Shown piece by piece: positions 5,281 through 24,601 of a stretch of DNA of 64,000 nt (its first letter is position 1; each line of letters begins with the position of its first letter). The notes below the pieces were generated by a model that had not been told where the DNA came from, did no database searches, and saw only the letters and a list, made by a program, of their open reading frames with translations. This DNA comes from Gemmatimonadota bacterium (lineage in GTDB: Bacteria > Gemmatimonadota > Gemmatimonadetes > Gemmatimonadales > GWC2-71-9), in contig PNAE01000007.1 of assembly GCA_003169895.1 (NCBI GenBank), forward strand, positions 1,326,160-1,390,159, in the 5' to 3' direction. Both the position numbers and the translations under genes were made by a program.

Positions 5281-6675
5281 ATGAAGCGTTCGTCGGCGCG
5301 TCAATTCGTCATCGCATTTCTCGGCACGACCGTCGCCGTCGCCGCGGCATGGTTCCTTCCGGGAGCTACTGGGCGCGGCTTCGCCAGTCTGCTCGCGCAG
5401 GCGGCGCCCGCTCCGGCCGTCCCGACGCCAATTCCGGTGGTCACCCATGTCCCGCTGCTTGCGCGATTCACCGGCGTGTTGGGCATCGGGTTGATCCTCG
5501 CGGTGGCATATGCGATGTCGCACAATCGCCGGCACATTCGCTGGAAAACGGTCGGCTGGGCCCTCGCGCTCCAGCTGGTGTTCGCGATCTTCGTGTTGCG
5601 GGTCCCCTTCGGCACCGAACTCTTCCGTCATCTCGGCGATGCGATCACGGCGGTGCTGCACTACTCGTACGCCGGGTCCGAATTCGTCTTCGGCGAACTC
5701 GGCAAGGCCAACTCCACGCTCGGGGTGATCTTCGCCTTCCAGATCCTCCCCGCAATCATCTTCATTTCCGCGCTGTTCGCGATGCTGTACTATCTCGGCG
5801 TGATGCAGGTCGTGGTGCGCGCCTGCGCCGTCGTGATGACCAAGCTCCTCGGCGCGAGCGGCGCCGAGAGCCTGAACGTCGGCGCGTCGATCTTCATGGG
5901 ACAGACGGAGGCGCCCCTCACCATTCGCCCGTTCCTGCCGCGCATGACGCAATCGGAATTGATGACCGTCATGACCGCCGGCATGGCGCACGTGTCCGGA
6001 TCGATCATGGCCGCCTATATCGCCTTCGGGATCGAGGCCCGCCACCTCCTCAGCGCGGTGATCATGACCGCACCCGGCACGATCATGATGGCCAAGATGT
6101 TCGAGCCGGAAACCGAGGTGCCCGAAACCTCCGGCAACCTCAAGATCGACATTCCCAAGACGGACGTGAACCTGGTCGACGCTGCGGCCCGCGGCACGGG
6201 CGAGGGCCTGCACCTCATGCTCAACGTCATCGCCATGCTGATTTCGTTCATCGCGCTGATCGCCCTGGTCAACGGCGGCATGGGATGGATTCACTCGGGC
6301 TTGGCGTGGTTTCCCGCCAACCTGCAGACGGTCCTGTCATGGCTTGGCCGCCCGGTGGCGTGGGTGCTCGGCGTGCCGTGGAAGGACAGCGGCGCGGTCG
6401 GCGGGCTGCTCGGCACGCGCGCGGTGCTCAACGAGTTCATCGCCTTCTCGCAGCTCGGACCGATGAAGGGCACCCTCGACCCGCGCTCGTTCACCATTGC
6501 GTCATTCGCGCTGGCTGGCTTCGCGAACTTCTCGTCGGTGGGCATCCAGATCGGCGGCATCGGCGCGCTGGCACCCAATCGCAAGAGCGACCTCGCCCGG
6601 CTCGGCTTTCGCGCCATGCTGGCGGGCACCCTGGCGAACTTCCTCTCTGCGGCCATCGCGGGGATTTTGCTGTGA
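5281..6675 (+). CDS. Concentrative nucleoside transporter (CNT/NupC family)
   Basis: Inner-membrane symporter importing nucleosides. The 464-aa product has an N-terminal hydrophobic helix and a Pro/Ala-rich segment, then the CNT core: repeated long membrane spans, GVIFAFQILPAIIFISALF, then GASGAESLNVGASIFMGQTEAPL, which is the CNT nucleoside-binding signature, and later NEFIAFSQL. The ATG at 5281 is chosen because it opens the first membrane helix; upstream codons overlap the deaminase. It lies 31 nt after add and overlaps the phosphorylase gene by 4 nt (GTGA), so uptake, deamination and phosphorolysis of purine nucleosides are encoded together. The family is secure; substrate specificity is inferred from context. 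Confidence 0.92.
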   Translation: MKRSSARQFVIAFLGTTVAVAAAWFLPGATGRGFASLLAQAAPAPAVPTPIPVVTHVPLLARFTGVLGIGLILAVAYAMSHNRRHIRWKTVGWALALQLVFAIFVLRVPFGTELFRHLGDAITAVLHYSYAGSEFVFGELGKANSTLGVIFAFQILPAIIFISALFAMLYYLGVMQVVVRACAVVMTKLLGASGAESLNVGASIFMGQTEAPLTIRPFLPRMTQSELMTVMTAGMAHVSGSIMAAYIAFGIEARHLLSAVIMTAPGTIMMAKMFEPETEVPETSGNLKIDIPKTDVNLVDAAARGTGEGLHLMLNVIAMLISFIALIALVNGGMGWIHSGLAWFPANLQTVLSWLGRPVAWVLGVPWKDSGAVGGLLGTRAVLNEFIAFSQLGPMKGTLDPRSFTIASFALAGFANFSSVGIQIGGIGALAPNRKSDLARLGFRAMLAGTLANFLSAAIAGILL

Positions 6676-18874: not shown

Positions 18875-19371
18875 GCTGTCTCCTCCGCTATCTGTGGATT
18901 CGGGGCTCGCCAATCGCCGCGCGCGCCCCCGCTCTTCTCCAGCAACCGGATCGCCGTGATGCGCATGTTGCGATCCACTGCCTTCACCATGTCGTACACC
19001 GTCAGGCACGCCACGCCAACGGCGGTGAGCGCTTCCATTTCAACGCCGGTCCGGGCGGTCGCCGCCACCGTCGCAGTCACCCGCACGCCCGGCCAGTCGT
19101 CCACGAGTTCCAGTTCCACCTGGACCTGATCCAGCGCGAGCGGATGGCAGAGCGGTATCAGCTCCCCGGCCCGCTTGGCCGCCATCACGCCGGCAATCTC
19201 GGCGGCCGCGAGAACATCACCCTTGACCACGGCCGATGCCCGCACCTGATCGAACGCATCGGCGGACATCAACACGCGCCCCTCCGCCACCGCCCGCCGC
19301 GCGGTGACCGGCTTGTCGCCCACGTCCACCATCCGCGCCCGGCCGGCGCTGTCGACGTGGCTTAGACTCAC
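18871..19371 (-). CDS. moaC: Cyclic pyranopterin monophosphate synthase MoaC
   Basis: Second step of molybdenum cofactor synthesis, forming cPMP from the MoaA product. The 166-aa product contains DVGDKPVTARRAVAEGRV, KGDVLAAAEIAGVMAAKRAGELIPLCHPL, and GVEMEALTAVGVACLTVYDMVKAVDRNM, the full set of MoaC motifs including the catalytic Lys/His/Asp regions. The GTG start (19371) overlaps the holB stop as GTGA. No other moa gene is present in the window. Confidence 0.96.
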   Translation of the reverse strand: MSLSHVDSAGRARMVDVGDKPVTARRAVAEGRVLMSADAFDQVRASAVVKGDVLAAAEIAGVMAAKRAGELIPLCHPLALDQVQVELELVDDWPGVRVTATVAATARTGVEMEALTAVGVACLTVYDMVKAVDRNMRITAIRLLEKSGGARGDWRAPNPQIAEETA

Positions 19372-20435
19372 CCCGCCTCCAGCGCCGACAGTTCGTCTGC
19401 TAGAACGGCCAGCAGGAGCTGCGGGTTCACGTTGCCCTGCGCCCGCTCCCGGGCCTGAAGCACCCGGTCCACCCCGGACAGTATCCCTGCCACGTTCACC
19501 GAGGAGACGCGGCCTCCGGGCCCGAGCGCACGTTGGGCGCGCATCGCCAGCCGTTCAGCTACCGCGTCGAGCAGGGTGGTGAACTCGCCCCGGGCTTGCC
19601 AGGGCGCCTGCCGGAGTACCCGTTCCATCGCCCGAACCGGCCCTTCGCTCACCGCATCGAGGAAGGTGTCAGCGGCGGCATCGGCCTTGGCCCGGAGTTC
19701 GGCGGCAGAGCCCAGCACGGCGCCGATCGATCCATTGGCCTGTGCGACGACCCGGTCGGTGGCGAGTTCCGGCTTGGCGACCGCGAGGAACTCCAGCACC
19801 TCCCGGGCCTGCAGGCGACCTAACCGCACCGGTGTCGCCCGGGACCGGATGGTCGGCAGGACCAGCCCGGGCTCGGCCGTGGTCAGCACGAAGAGTGACC
19901 GGCGAGGCGGTTCCTCGAGCAGCTTGAGCAGCGCATTGGCCGCCTCGGGACTCGACTCCTGAGCCACCAGCCGTTCGGCGTGGCCGATGATGAACACCCG
20001 CCAGCCGCCTTCGACGGGTGTCAGGCTGGCCTGCCGCTGCAGCAGGCGTGCCGAGCTGACGCCGTGCGCCAGCATTCCGTCGGGAGCGCTCCACAGCGGC
20101 GTTTGCCTGCGTTCAGCCATCACCGCTTCGAGCAATTCGGCGACTTCGTCGACCTGCTTGTCTGCATCGCCAGGTTTCGGCCGGGGCACCGGAACGAACC
20201 AGTGGAGATCAGGATGGGTGAGGCCGAGCACCCGGGCGCAACCCTTACAGGCGCCGCACGGCCTGGGTTCCGGACCGGTGCAGAGCAGCACTTGGGCGAG
20301 CCAGAGTCCCAGTCGTTGCTTGCCGACCCCGCGCGGTCCCGTCACCAGCAGCACCTGCGGCAGCCGGTCGGCGCCAATGGCAGCGGACAGCTGCTGGCGA
20401 ACCATGTGGTGGCCGACGAATGGGTACATACTCAT
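19368..20435 (-). CDS. holB: DNA polymerase III delta' subunit-type clamp-loader protein
   Basis: AAA+ subunit of the clamp loader. The 355-aa product has FVGHHMVRQQLSAAI, LLVTGPRGVGKQRLG (P-loop-like), a zinc-binding four-cysteine insert (CTGPEPRPCGACKGCARV), IIGHAERL, EAANALLKLLEEPP (SRC-adjacent sensor region) and TIRSRATPVRL. These are the HolB/DnaX-family landmarks. ATG 20435 is preceded on the minus strand by TATCTT (20447-20442), six nt upstream, suggesting a leaderless start. It heads a three-gene coupled operon holB-moaC-transglycosylase. Confidence 0.93.
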   Translation of the reverse strand: MSMYPFVGHHMVRQQLSAAIGADRLPQVLLVTGPRGVGKQRLGLWLAQVLLCTGPEPRPCGACKGCARVLGLTHPDLHWFVPVPRPKPGDADKQVDEVAELLEAVMAERRQTPLWSAPDGMLAHGVSSARLLQRQASLTPVEGGWRVFIIGHAERLVAQESSPEAANALLKLLEEPPRRSLFVLTTAEPGLVLPTIRSRATPVRLGRLQAREVLEFLAVAKPELATDRVVAQANGSIGAVLGSAAELRAKADAAADTFLDAVSEGPVRAMERVLRQAPWQARGEFTTLLDAVAERLAMRAQRALGPGGRVSSVNVAGILSGVDRVLQARERAQGNVNPQLLLAVLADELSALEAG

Positions 20436-20554
20436 GCAATAAAGATAGTTGACCAGGACCGGAATGAGTAGTCAACGAAAGCCTGTAACCCTTTTTTCCA
20501 CAATGATTTACGTCAATCCAGATGGCGATCATGCGCCACAATGGCTGACCTGAA

Positions 20555-20611
20555 TGCTCAAGTGGAAGAGTGTTTGCTCACGTCTGTATTCAAAATGTGA
20601 GCATGTGCTCA
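20555..20611. promoter_or_regulatory. Cluster of TGCTCA boxes
   Basis: TGCTCA occurs at 20555-20560, 20575-20580 and 20606-20611, with the inverted form TGAGCA at 20598-20603. Start-to-start spacings of the direct copies are 20 and 31 bp, close to whole helical turns. The last two copies form TGAGCA-TG-TGCTCA flanked by AAAA and TTTT. This looks like an operator array or a hairpin-rich leader; the regulator is unknown. Confidence 0.4.
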
Positions 20612-20769
20612 TTTTGGTGCTTTTCGTGCGTTTTTCGTTGGGTTTTGCCGCTATGGTTGGAGCCGGTGACCGGCGGTCCCGGGCTGGACAGCAATGCTTG
20701 CAGCGAGGCAGGCATGGGCGGTCCGGCGTTGGACGTCATTCTTGCCCCTACCGAGTCAGGATAACTACT

Positions 20770-20799
20770 TTGACGCGCCGCGCGCGCTTGGCGTAGCAA
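20770..20799 (+). promoter_or_regulatory. Candidate promoter of tRNA-Asn
   Basis: TTGACG (20770-20775) and TAGCAA (20794-20799) with an 18-nt spacer that is very GC-rich. The tRNA starts 5 nt after the -10-like box, a normal distance for a stable RNA whose 5' end is trimmed little. Confidence 0.5.
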
Positions 20800-20804
20800 T
20801 GCAT

Positions 20805-20877
20805 TCCCGAGTAGCTCAGTCGGTAGAGCAGCTGACTGTTAATCAGCGGGTCGGGGGTTCGAGTCCCTCCTCGGGAG
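20805..20877 (+). tRNA. tRNA-Asn (anticodon GTT)
   Basis: 73 nt: acceptor TCCCGAG/CTCGGGA with discriminator G, D stem GCTC/GAGC, anticodon stem GCTGA/TCAGC with loop CTGTTAA (anticodon GTT), T arm GGGGG-TTCGAGT-CCCTC. CCA is not encoded. Its 3' 23 nt (20855-20877) are repeated exactly at 22989-23011, marking it as a likely integration target. Confidence 0.97.
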
Positions 20878-21029
20878 CTGCAGTACCGCAATAGCGTTGT
20901 GGTGGGTAGCTGCCTTCGCCGGTCATCACCAACCGCACCGTCTCCCGCTCATACTCTCGACTGACCCGCCGTCGCGAACGCACATCGACCTGCGGTCTGC
21001 CGAGGCACATGCGCTCGCCCCCCCCGGCG

Positions 21030-22814
21030 TCATCGAGGTCGTGATCCCGCCGACGGTTGTTGCGACAGAATCCTGAGCAGATACACCGGTTGCAGCGCCT
21101 TGGAACGCGTGCTTGCATTGAGGAATGTCCCCGTGAGCAGGGCGACCTCGAAATGCTGAAATGCGCCGGTCTCCGTGTACGCCACGCCAGCGCTGTCGAG
21201 CCGGGCTCGGCCGGGAACATCGGTATAAAGCCAGTAGTCACCACTGGCCACCGCTCGCTGGCGAACCGCTGCGGCGGTCGGGATGACGGGAACCACCTGC
21301 CCGGCGTAGAAATCCATGGCGTCGCCTTCACGATTGTAGCTGGCGAGCCGGTTGGACGCGATATGGGCGGTGCGCGCGAAGCGCGGCACCACTGCGGTGC
21401 TCTGATAGGGCAGCAGATTGGGGTAGAAATGAAAGTTCAGCACGAACGCCGTACCCACGGCAGCGAGCACGCTGCGCTGCACCAGGCGTTCGGTGGCTGG
21501 CGGAAATGGTTGGTGCCAGCAGATCACCAGGAGCGAGCCGAAGATGGCGAGCACGACGGCCCAGAGGAGAACATTGCCGGTCGGAAACACGCCGCGCAGC
21601 AGCCAGAGGAGGACCAGGCTCAGACCGACAAACACCACGTACTGCCCCCGCCACCACGCCCGTCCAAGTGCGGCCGGCGTGGCGAGCCAGCGTGCCGTGA
21701 GGATGGCGGCCCAGGGCAGCGTCAGGAAGATGTAGTGCGGCAGCTTGTAGCGCGACAATGACAGCGCGATGAAGGTCAATACGAAGCCACCCAGCGAGTA
21801 TGCCTCGTCGCCCCTGGGCAGGCGGAACCGCTGGCGAACGACAGCACTGATGCGTTGCCACAGTGCGCCGATCAAGAGCAGCGACCACGGCAGAAATGCC
21901 CATAGATACACGTGCAGGAAGTAGAACGGCGATGCGCCGTTTCGGAACGGACTCGCTCCGGTGATGCGGCCGAAACTCTGGTCCCAGAAAAAGAACTTCA
22001 GCCCGGACACGCCGGTCTGGCCATTGATCAGGGTGTTCGGCTGCAGATCGAACTGCTGATACAGTCCCCAGCACATCGGCAGCAGCACAACTGCCACGAC
22101 GGCGCCGCCGAGCAGCCACTGCCACTGAAACAGCCGTCGCCAATCGCGGTGCAACGCCAGGTGGACCCCGACGGCGAACCCTGGCGCGACCAATCCGATC
22201 GGGCCTTTGGCGACCATGGCGAGGCCAATGAAGACCGCGGCAAGCACCAGATGCCCGGTTCTGGCCCTCCCACCGGCACGATCATTCGCGGTCGCGCCGG
22301 GATCGCCATCGGCGTGACGCGCCGGCTGGAGATACGCCGCCAGCTGCCACATCGCACCCGTCGTCATCCCCAGCAGCAGGGTGTCGGTGCGCACGTCATT
22401 GCAGATCAGGATCAGGCCAATACAGGAGGCCAGGATGAACGCGGCGTTACGTGCGGTGGCGCGGGCGTAGAAGAGGAGGGAGAATCGATACACTGCGTAC
22501 ACCGCGGCGATGGCGGCTAACAGCGATGGGAGTTTGTAGCTCCAGTTGTGCAGGCCGAACACGGCAAACGACAGCGCCGAGGTCCAGAACAGGAGCGGCG
22601 GCTTGTCGAGATAATCAGCGGAGTGATGCTGCAACTGGAGCCAGTGCCCGTGCTGCAGCATTTCCATCGAGATGGAGGCGTACTGGGACGCATCCACGTC
22701 CATGACGTCGATGCAGAGTCCACGGACATAGATGATGACGAGACCGAGGGCGAGCCATGCCCACGGACGGCGAACCCACCTGGGAAGTTGAGCCGGTGCC
22801 ATCGGTTGATTCAT
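21030..22814 (-). CDS. ArnT-like membrane glycosyltransferase (GT-C fold)
   Basis: Polytopic inner-membrane enzyme expected to transfer a sugar from a polyprenyl-phosphate donor to an envelope acceptor. The ~594-aa product has about 12 hydrophobic spans. A first periplasmic loop carries DVMDVDASQYASISMEML with the acidic GT-C motif, followed by HSADYLDKPPLLFWTSALSF, the ArnT/PMT-family 'DKPP' signature. A soluble C-terminal domain holds DFYAGQVVPVIP and DYWLYTDVPG. ATG 22814 is preferred; a TTG at 22826 would add MGDQ. The gene lies inside the att-bounded segment, looks somewhat lower in G+C than its neighbours, and its motif wording recalls Bacteroidota homologues, so lateral transfer is inferred. 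The acceptor is unknown. Confidence 0.85.
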   Translation of the reverse strand: MNQPMAPAQLPRWVRRPWAWLALGLVIIYVRGLCIDVMDVDASQYASISMEMLQHGHWLQLQHHSADYLDKPPLLFWTSALSFAVFGLHNWSYKLPSLLAAIAAVYAVYRFSLLFYARATARNAAFILASCIGLILICNDVRTDTLLLGMTTGAMWQLAAYLQPARHADGDPGATANDRAGGRARTGHLVLAAVFIGLAMVAKGPIGLVAPGFAVGVHLALHRDWRRLFQWQWLLGGAVVAVVLLPMCWGLYQQFDLQPNTLINGQTGVSGLKFFFWDQSFGRITGASPFRNGASPFYFLHVYLWAFLPWSLLLIGALWQRISAVVRQRFRLPRGDEAYSLGGFVLTFIALSLSRYKLPHYIFLTLPWAAILTARWLATPAALGRAWWRGQYVVFVGLSLVLLWLLRGVFPTGNVLLWAVVLAIFGSLLVICWHQPFPPATERLVQRSVLAAVGTAFVLNFHFYPNLLPYQSTAVVPRFARTAHIASNRLASYNREGDAMDFYAGQVVPVIPTAAAVRQRAVASGDYWLYTDVPGRARLDSAGVAYTETGAFQHFEVALLTGTFLNASTRSKALQPVYLLRILSQQPSAGSRPR

Positions 22815-22988
22815 TTGGTCGCCCAAAGATGCTCGCCGTGTCGCCGGAGCGGCAGGACGTACTGCGGCCCCGCGCCTTCGCGGGCGCCTCTGCCGCTCGC
22901 TACTGCCGGCCGTTCGGGCTCCTGGCTACCGGCCAGCGGCGGGTCGAAGCACATGGCGGGCGTTCCGGGCCATCCAGGCTCCGCTGGC

Positions 22989-23011
22989 GGGTTCGAGTCC
23001 CTCCTCGGGAG
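22989..23011 (+). repeat. att-like copy of the tRNA-Asn 3' end
   Basis: 23 bp identical to 20855-20877, covering the 3' half of the T arm and the acceptor strand of tRNA-Asn plus the discriminator base. No other part of a tRNA accompanies it, so this is not a decayed whole tRNA gene. Confidence 0.85.
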
Positions 23012-23077
23012 TTGCCACGGTATGCCCCGCCAGGCGCAGGTGCTCGCACCGAAGGCGCGTTCCGATACTATTCAACA

Positions 23078-24601
23078 ATGTCCATGCCTGGGTACCTGCC
23101 GCGCTGCGGCTCGCTCTTCCCGCTCCTGTTGGCGGTCGCGGCTTGCCGCGCTCCGTTCGAATCCGATTTCGTCACGCCGCCGCCCCCGCCGCCCGCCGGT
23201 CCGTTGCTGCCATTGCGCATCGGGTCGGTCGGACCGGATTTCGCCCGCGCGGTCGCGACCGACGCCGCCGGCAACGGTTACGTCGTGAGCTATTTCGCCG
23301 GGACCGTCGATTTCGATGCCGGCGCCGGCGCCGTCGCGCGCACTGCGGTCGGACCATACGACATCGCGCTCACCAAATACGCGGCGGACGGATCATTCCT
23401 CTGGGTTTTCGTCATCGGCGGAACGGACACGGACGTTCCGTTCAACGTGAAGCTGGCTCCGGACGGCGGTATCTACGTCACCGGTTTTGTCACGGCCGGC
23501 GCGCTCTGCAGCGGCCATGTGCTCCCGAACGCTGGCGGGCACGACATCCTGCTGATGCGCATCAGCGCCGTCGGAACCTGCGACTGGGCGATTGGCGTCG
23601 GCGGGACCGGTACCGATGAAGGTCACGATCTCGCGATCGATACCAACGGCGACGTGCTGGTCACCGGCTCGTTCTCGGAGACGGTGGATTTCGACCCGGG
23701 TCCCGGTACCGCACTGCTGGTGTCGCGCGGCGGCACCGACGGCTTCGTGGCACGTTATGGCTCCGACGGCACCTTCATCAGCGTAACGCAGTTCGGCGGC
23801 GTCGGTGACGACGCCGGCAACGCGATCGCGCTTCGGACCGACGACGACGTGGTGGTCGCCGGGACATTCAGCGTCACGGCGACATTCGGATCGACGCTCG
23901 CGCCACAATTGCTGCTGAGCGCGGGTGGAACCGACTACTTCCTGGCCCGCCTGGCGCCCACGCTGGGCCTCGAATGGGCGATTCGCGGTGGCGGCGCCGG
24001 CGACGACGCCATCAACACCGGCGGCATCGTCGTCGACGCGGGCGGCGTCACGTATGCTGCCGGCACGTTCACCGGCACCGCCAGCGTCGGGCCAGGCGCG
24101 GGAGGGCAACTCCTCGTGAGCCACGGCGACGCGGATGTCTTCATCGTGAATTACGACGGCACCGGCGGTTGGGGCACCTTCGCCCGGACGTTTGGCGGGA
24201 TTGGCACCGAGGGTGTTTCCACGTTTACGCGCGACGTCGCCGGCAATTTCTACCTGGGCGGCTCGTTCCAGGGATCGGTCGACTTCGATCCCGGCACTGG
24301 CACGCACGTCGTCAACGCGCTGGCCTCCGCCGGCGCCGCCGATGCCTACGTGCTGTCGCTCACCCCGACGGGCGACCTGCGCTGGGTCGATCCCCTCGAC
24401 GCCGTCATCGCCGGCGATGCCAACGTCGCCATTACGGGCGGGCTCTCACTGGCTGGCGACGGAACCATCTGGGCGGTGGGCCGGTTCTTCGGTCTCGTGG
24501 ATTTCGATCCGGGAACAAGCGCCGTCCAGCGCCAGAGCCTGGGCGATGCCGACCAGTTTGTGGTGCGGTATGACCAGGTGACCGGAGCGATCCGTCGGTA
24601 G
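23078..24601 (+). CDS. SBBP-type beta-propeller repeat lipoprotein
   Basis: The 507-aa product has a lipoprotein signal (PLLLAVAACRAP), a Pro-rich stretch (TPPPPPPAGP), then about seven repeats of 40-70 residues. These repeats share ATDAAGNGYVVSYFAGTVDFD, AIDTNGDVLVTGSFSETVDFDPG and VDAGGVTYAAGTFTG patterns, typical of SBBP/NHL-like propeller blades on surface or periplasmic proteins. ATG 23078 is preceded by TACTAT (23066-23071) six nt upstream, again a leaderless-type arrangement. It lies just outside the att-like repeat. No enzymatic motif is seen; adhesion or ligand binding is only a guess. Confidence 0.82.
   Translation: MSMPGYLPRCGSLFPLLLAVAACRAPFESDFVTPPPPPPAGPLLPLRIGSVGPDFARAVATDAAGNGYVVSYFAGTVDFDAGAGAVARTAVGPYDIALTKYAADGSFLWVFVIGGTDTDVPFNVKLAPDGGIYVTGFVTAGALCSGHVLPNAGGHDILLMRISAVGTCDWAIGVGGTGTDEGHDLAIDTNGDVLVTGSFSETVDFDPGPGTALLVSRGGTDGFVARYGSDGTFISVTQFGGVGDDAGNAIALRTDDDVVVAGTFSVTATFGSTLAPQLLLSAGGTDYFLARLAPTLGLEWAIRGGGAGDDAINTGGIVVDAGGVTYAAGTFTGTASVGPGAGGQLLVSHGDADVFIVNYDGTGGWGTFARTFGGIGTEGVSTFTRDVAGNFYLGGSFQGSVDFDPGTGTHVVNALASAGAADAYVLSLTPTGDLRWVDPLDAVIAGDANVAITGGLSLAGDGTIWAVGRFFGLVDFDPGTSAVQRQSLGDADQFVVRYDQVTGAIRR

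Follow-up and report, generated by a model that had tools for sequence, protein, structure and literature searches.

An integrase-less, single-gene unit at the tRNA-Asn gene of a Gemmatimonadota genome, probably the remnant of a genomic island

Immediately after an intact tRNA-Asn(GTT) gene, the genome of a Gemmatimonadota bacterium carries a 2.1-kb unit that contains one membrane glycosyltransferase gene and is closed by a second copy of the tRNA 3' end, and we consider this unit to be probably (a chance of roughly 0.6) a deletion remnant of a tRNA-Asn genomic island. Comparison with relatives supports site-specific integration at tRNA-Asn, a hotspot that has received several independent insertions, this unit among them. 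The window, by which we mean the whole stretch of 64,000 nucleotides that was analysed, corresponds to C8:1326160-1390159 of a 13-contig, 3.42-Mb assembly (our genome G000).

Anatomy of the tRNA-Asn unit

The features of the unit and its surroundings, in window coordinates, are as follows.

19368..20435, minus strand: chromosomal neighbour on the other side of the tRNA, DNA polymerase III delta'-like (name by inspection)
20805..20878, plus strand: intact tRNA-Asn(GTT), the attB-bearing gene (ARAGORN)
20855..20877, plus strand: first 23-bp copy, attL core inside the tRNA gene (repeat search)
20878..21029, no strand: tRNA-proximal inner end, without a terminator within 130 nt of the tRNA (terminator scan)
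21030..22826, minus strand: predicted GT-C / PMT_2 membrane glycosyltransferase with an ArnT fold, 598 aa (594 aa from the ATG at 22814)
22827..22988, no strand: distal inner end of the unit, with no similarity to the other units examined
22989..23011, plus strand: second 23-bp copy, attR core, displaced tRNA 3' fragment (repeat search)
23012..23077, no strand: outer flank, homologous to the sequence beyond the tRNA fragment in congener G007 (29/37 bases, ungapped)
23078..24601, plus strand: chromosomal neighbour, lipoprotein-like with beta-propeller repeats (SBBP-like, below the Pfam cut-off), 507 aa

The first-pass annotation had described an exact 23-bp duplicate of the tRNA-Asn 3' end bounding 2.13 kb, and this description is confirmed: GGGTTCGAGTCCCTCCTCGGGAG occurs at 20855-20877 and at 22989-23011 in the same orientation, with a start-to-start spacing of 2,134 bp, and when the repeat is extended to 27 bp the copies differ by one mismatch (26/27 bases identical). 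The second copy spans the tRNA from position 51, in the T-arm, to one base before the 3' end called by ARAGORN. At up to two mismatches the 23-mer is found in only two places in the 3.42-Mb genome, both at this locus, and a reversed control gave none; since base composition predicts 6e-7 exact occurrences per genome and 2e-10 per 2,134 bp, the duplicate is not a product of chance. The unit is present once in its own genome. The same annotation held that the tRNA is left intact and that the unit carries a single glycosyltransferase gene and no integrase, and both points stand, as ARAGORN calls a full tRNA-Asn at 20805-20878, the insert (20878-22988) has one long ORF with a family match, itself intact, and PF00589 is absent from the unit. 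We note that a frame at 20882-21004 on the minus strand presumably resembles the start of an IS3-type OrfA; it was rejected as a transposase remnant after two versions of it matched no Pfam families and tblastn on plasmids gave no match.

The tRNA-Asn locus in related genomes

The loci of relatives were located through the upstream neighbour together with tRNA-Asn, and 20 stretches were read. Seven of the nine congeners are readable downstream of tRNA-Asn (G002 and G008 in part); in G001 the contig (L042, G001:C60:1-143) ends 1 nt past the tRNA, and in G009 the locus was not found. The DNA polymerase III delta'-like gene is kept upstream of tRNA-Asn in relatives, and the lipoprotein-like gene lies downstream of it in five congeners read (G003-G007, on the second contig in G007). 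The end of the G001 contig resembles an assembly fork between strains with and without an island.

The first-pass annotation had proposed looking for an empty site in relatives, and G003 provides one: about 150 bp separate its tRNA-Asn from the ATG of the lipoprotein-like gene, a direct junction with a single tRNA copy. In G004, G005 and G006 other DNA lies between the same two genes (including an alpha-L-fucosidase gene in G004), with no repeat of at least 13 nt detected by scan at these three loci, and other DNA likewise occupies the 0.5 kb available after tRNA-Asn in G002. A split tRNA-Asn 3' fragment is located 1.3 kb downstream of the tRNA in G008. The G007 locus (L049, L050) is occupied by a prophage-like element divided over two contigs, the first with an integrase-like ORF of 466 aa adjoining tRNA-Asn, the second with a terminase (PF20454/PF05876; phrog_15, E 1.1e-139) and other genes followed by a tRNA fragment of 47 nt (tRNA nucleotides 28-74) and then the lipoprotein-like gene. 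The assignment of the 466-aa ORF as an integrase is moderately supported, with a weak match to the phrog_1 integrase family of PHROG (8.4e-7) and no Pfam match at 0.05. Taken together, the empty site of G003, the other DNA of G004-G006, the prophage of G007 and the split fragment of G008 identify tRNA-Asn as an insertion hotspot. The glycosyltransferase gene lies at the tRNA-Asn locus in none of the seven readable congeners, the reverse of the distribution (gene and repeat at this locus in all deep relatives, with a vertical phylogeny) that the first-pass annotation had named as incompatible with an island.

Starting as it does in the T-arm, the second copy in the window is a short T-arm fragment, unlike the larger tRNA 3' half in the G007 island. 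Because the copies begin at tRNA position 51 in the window and at position 28, on the anticodon side, in G007, the two elements probably used different recombinase specificities; distinct tRNA sub-sites of integration are also described in the available part of the Islander study (PMC4383910).

Flanking sequences and the missing terminator

The 66-bp stretch that leads from the second copy to the ATG of the lipoprotein-like gene contains a 37-base ungapped alignment with the G007 interval in which 29 bases are identical, the aligned stretch being nearly equidistant from the copy in the window and in G007 (21 and 20 nt), and none of 2,000 shuffles scores as high. This match outside the second copy is as predicted by insertion between the tRNA and its flank. 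The flank of the first copy shows no homology to G007 (283 of 1,000 shuffles score as high), and comparisons of the outer flank of the second copy with G004 and G003 are not significant (189 and 840 of 1,000 shuffles, respectively).

A terminator, consisting of a stem-loop and a T-run, occurs within 130 nt after tRNA-Asn in all seven readable congeners (G002-G008) and in three of eight genomes of other genera, but after neither tRNA-Asn copy in the window, where 15 of 300 random segments contain one by way of background. The terminator of G007 belongs to the element itself and lies ahead of the integrase-like ORF, and in G008 similar terminators follow both tRNA-Asn and its split fragment.

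The glycosyltransferase and its origin

The protein scores 42.9 bits against PF13231 (PMT_2; cut-off 26.1 bits) and matches the ArnT of Cupriavidus metallidurans in the PDB (E 4.5e-17). An AlphaFold2 model built from 19 aligned relatives (L087, L094 and L095 were left out of this 19-row alignment) has a pLDDT of 87.6 and a pTM of 0.89, and its best PDB matches by Foldseek are the ArnT structures 5f15 and 5ezm (E 2.7e-18 and 3.7e-18; TMq 0.70 and 0.67), followed by other GT-C enzymes. The Asp of the first loop, which we take to be catalytic in ArnT, aligns with that of 5ezm and is invariant in the 19 rows (D41), as are D70, K71 and P72. Family score and model thus place the protein among the GT-C / PMT_2 membrane glycosyltransferases and give it an ArnT fold, and its family suggests a polyprenyl-phosphate-sugar dependent transferase at the outer face of the inner membrane, which would take a sugar from the polyprenyl-phosphate carrier and attach it to a lipid or envelope acceptor in the periplasm. 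The first-pass annotation had suggested that the enzyme could change envelope glycan or lipid charge. ArnT, the lipid A aminoarabinose transferase, and the window protein are alike in fold, length, PMT family, first-loop Asp and KPP motif, but share only 18-19% identity in the structural match, and the score against the ArnT equivalog NF009784 of NCBIfam (78.2 bits) is far below the cut-off of 567 bits. A PAP2 phosphatase gene precedes the homologue in two scanned loci, of Sediminibacterium and Maribacter (L086, L089), a weak hint to lipid or carrier metabolism; the scanned Saprospiraceae loci have other neighbours beside the homologue. Identities between the window gene and its G001 homologue by codon position (0.757/0.818/0.493) point to purifying selection.

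Homologues at 1e-3 are present in 16 of 61 genomes (60 relatives and the window's own), but a close one (67-68% identity) only in G001, that is, in one of nine congeners, and across the phylum four of 395 genomes, the window's own included, match at E<=1e-30. A scan of contigs returned 19 loci with homologues, one of them G001 and the other 18 from Bacteroidota, judging by their titles; beyond the G001 gene, the nearest homologues are thus those of Bacteroidota. Phylogenetic reconstruction was carried out with 31 rows and again without the long-branch rows L011, L087, L094 and L095 (L013 and L018-L021 are in neither tree). The window and G001 genes group together (100/99) and join three Bacteroidota rows of Saprospiraceae type in a five-row set with support of 97/99, or 99/98 without the long branches. 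An AU test does not reject a Saprospiraceae/Chitinophagales clade that excludes the two Gemmatimonadota rows (p 0.235), so that neither nesting inside Bacteroidota nor the direction of transfer is proven. The gene likely came from, or was exchanged with, Bacteroidota, in either direction, in keeping with the lateral acquisition that the first-pass annotation had suspected and had put to a phylogenetic check. No relative of the gene was found in viral contigs, and its plasmid matches are all below 60% identity with none covering 80%.

Nucleotide composition offers little support for a recent transfer, as the GC3 of the gene (0.780) is only slightly lower than that of seven neighbours read in frame (0.80-0.88); any transfer was probably old. 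Tetranucleotide distance was discarded as a sign of foreignness: four of 124 window steps are at least as far out as the unit, all starting at 19501-21001, and as these overlap either the unit region or the AT-richer stretch before the tRNA the signal is not specific.

The G001 homologue occupies an unrelated, non-tRNA locus, flanked by a gene of 175 codons and by one that on inspection is AstE-like, and thus the gene has moved without tRNA-Asn at least once. When the G001 neighbourhood was sought in six stretches, only a bactofilin-like gene was found, plus one further gene in G009.

Integrases and other tRNA-bounded units

Searching the genome with PF00589 (Pfam) yielded 11 integrase-type matches, none of them inside the unit or at either tRNA-Asn copy. 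Six have another tRNA in the fetched surroundings (Ile, Gly, Pro, Pro, Gln and Arg), two lie directly after displaced copies of tRNA-Gly and tRNA-Ile, and three are without a nearby tRNA. The search for a tRNA-Asn-specific integrase that the first-pass annotation had recommended thus found none in this genome, the integrase-like ORF at tRNA-Asn being that of G007; the G007-type integrase itself has no match here, an empty answer that alone shows little.

A more unusual arrangement than the tRNA-Asn unit is found elsewhere in the same genome, at a tRNA-Gly(CCC) gene (L128, G000:C1:33000-52990), where four exact copies of a 42-bp repeat, including the tRNA's own, form an array containing integrase-less cassettes.

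C1:33462, 47673, 49590 and 52609 (L128: 463, 14674, 16591 and 19610): tRNA-Gly 42-bp copies

The first interval (14.2 kb) contains an integrase, another integrase follows the fourth copy, and the opening 2.8 kb of these two islands are 88% identical. Between them lie two units of 1,917 and 3,019 bp without an integrase match; they share a left end of about 110 bp (84%) and a right end of about 190 bp (91%, both percentages including the copy) and differ in their middles, and contig C10 (L155) has another copy with both kinds of tRNA-Gly cassette end. Beyond the tRNA core, the tRNA-Asn unit has no ends in common with these cassettes or with other tRNA-Asn copies.

Among 102 genomes of the family, 14 have two matches to the tRNA-Asn 3' pattern, namely the window's own, G007, G026 and 11 others. 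In G026 (L053 6850-8963) a 2-kb integrase-less unit with a YbjQ-domain gene lies between tRNA-Asn and a 48-nt 3' copy. Of the 11 others, four (G066, G080, G082, G084) have as their second match a 3' fragment that is not called as a tRNA, six have two full tRNA calls, and in one (G106) a contig end cuts the second match. Before each of the four fragments, which belong to two other genera (L106, L108, L111, L112), lies a conserved 155-245 bp, 77-87% identical where aligned, that looks like a common element end.

Several further observations concern tRNA loci in these genomes. A displaced tRNA-Pro fragment (L131, at about 6.2 kb, reverse strand, G000:C2) and the tRNA-Asn fragment of G008 (L051, about 5764-5860) are interrupted at the same point of the T-loop, and both inserts begin with a near-identical hairpin whose stem differs by paired changes. 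A motif like TTTCTCAGGAAAC..CGGCATTTCA recurs at the distal ends of the islands at tRNA-Gly, tRNA-Pro and tRNA-Arg (L128, L131 and L133, all G000), as if one element family used several tRNAs. The hexamer CTCGCT is found near many tRNA copies and was not counted as evidence. Outside the window but on the same contig (G000:C8), two tRNA calls of 86 nt with the label Ala(CGC) lie 5.5 kb apart (L127 14370-14455 and 19898-19983); they resemble tRNAs with a long variable arm, and the label is doubtful.

How the unit may have arisen

An incoming element with a T-arm attP would have been joined to the 3' end of tRNA-Asn by a tyrosine recombinase, and the anatomy of the locus, together with the arrangement in relatives, shows that tRNA-Asn was restored and the displaced fragment of 23-27 bp pushed to the far side. 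The tRNA-proximal side, where G007 has its integrase and terminator, would later have been lost, leaving one cargo gene between two att cores. As no integrase remnant is recognisable in the unit, we infer this deletion from the absence of integrase and terminator. Should a matching integrase enter, excision of the unit in trans may yet be possible.

Mobilisation in trans is also central to a different account, in which the unit would be a complete minimal cassette, integrase-less from the outset and moved by the integrases of other islands, in the manner of a CIME or satellite. The integrase-less tRNA-Gly units of 1.9 and 3.0 kb with their shared ends, the additional ends on C10 and the YbjQ-gene unit of G026 speak for such cassettes, but the tRNA-Asn unit shares no ends with the tRNA-Gly cassettes, is present once, has no matching integrase in its own genome, and lacks the terminator that follows tRNA-Asn in congeners. 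Of the two origins that the first-pass annotation had left open, this last absence favours a deletion remnant over an intact trans-mobilised cassette, and while it tilts the choice without settling it, we regard the cassette account of this unit as unlikely. Slightly more doubtful still is the broader idea that the tRNAs of this lineage carry short integrase-less cassettes, flanked by tRNA 3' ends and moved in trans by integrases of islands that neighbour them or come in from outside, that are gained and lost like integron cassettes, with tRNA-Gly as the clearest example and tRNA-Asn as a lone case.

Two accounts would separate the gene or the repeat from island integration. The glycosyltransferase might have arrived between old att copies by a local or ectopic event, such as transposition, recombination or relocation of a gene inherited in the genus; the unrelated, non-tRNA position of the 67-68% identical G001 homologue would be consistent with this, but no transposase was recognised in the unit, the fragment at 20882-21004 being without a match, and such an origin seems quite improbable. 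A recombinase-free origin of the second copy, by simple duplication of the tRNA 3' end, would fit the similar terminators after the tRNA and the split fragment in G008, also expected from local duplication; we consider it highly improbable for the window, where similarity ends after 27 bp and covers only the tRNA core, and where the outer flank of the second copy is the chromosomal flank seen in G007.

Comparison with known tRNA-associated islands

Considered together with the empty site of G003 and the unrelated element of G007, the unit marks tRNA-Asn as a place where elements have landed repeatedly in a lineage that has been little studied. Among the literature matches listed no title concerned tRNA islands of Gemmatimonadota. 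The unit also indicates that a single gene without an integrase, set beside a tRNA, can be a genuine unit. The Islander criteria, as given in the available part of PMC4383910, comprise an intact tDNA with a displaced 3' fragment, an integrase within the island and a length of 2-200 kb. The window has an intact tDNA and a displaced 3' fragment downstream in the same orientation, and its 2,134 bp are just above the 2-kb limit, but with no PF00589 match in the unit it is not an Islander island, only island-like. According to the same part of that study, candidates without an integrase or shorter than 2 kb are discarded, and small integrase-less units are therefore likely to be under-counted. The tyrosine recombinase of its own by which a tycheposon is recognised is likewise absent from the unit. 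If the tRNA-Gly cassettes are mobile in trans, they would provide a testable system for gene capture without integrons.

The unit is an integrase-less tRNA island of a known and ordinary kind, CIME-like, in another lineage, and its main oddity is its small size with one gene. CIMEs (cis-mobilizable elements) are described in the available text of PMC5704250 as elements without integration or transfer genes that keep att-like sites at both ends. The window unit similarly keeps two 23-bp att cores and is without integration or transfer genes, which were presumably lost, but it is only 2.1 kb long with one gene, and no related ICE or IME from which it might descend was found at tRNA-Asn. The additive flexible genomic islands of Methylophilaceae, in the available part of PMC10872708, are built on repeated copies of a tRNA's final 20 nt, range from 330 bp to 42 kb with 1-63 CDS, and vary in content; their repeats vary in number, whereas tRNA-Asn in the window has a single unit, and the tRNA-Gly locus of the same genome is closer to them. 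The asn-tDNA of Klebsiella pneumoniae, as far as it is treated in the available part of PMC4891358, is a hotspot for unrelated islands with direct repeats of the tRNA 3' end, of which groups VIII, IX and XII have no integrase and for which cross-talk of integrases has been proposed. These islands and the window unit are alike in the tRNA-Asn hotspot, the 3' repeats and, in some groups, the absence of an integrase; the window unit differs in belonging to another phylum, in being far smaller and in carrying a single cargo gene.
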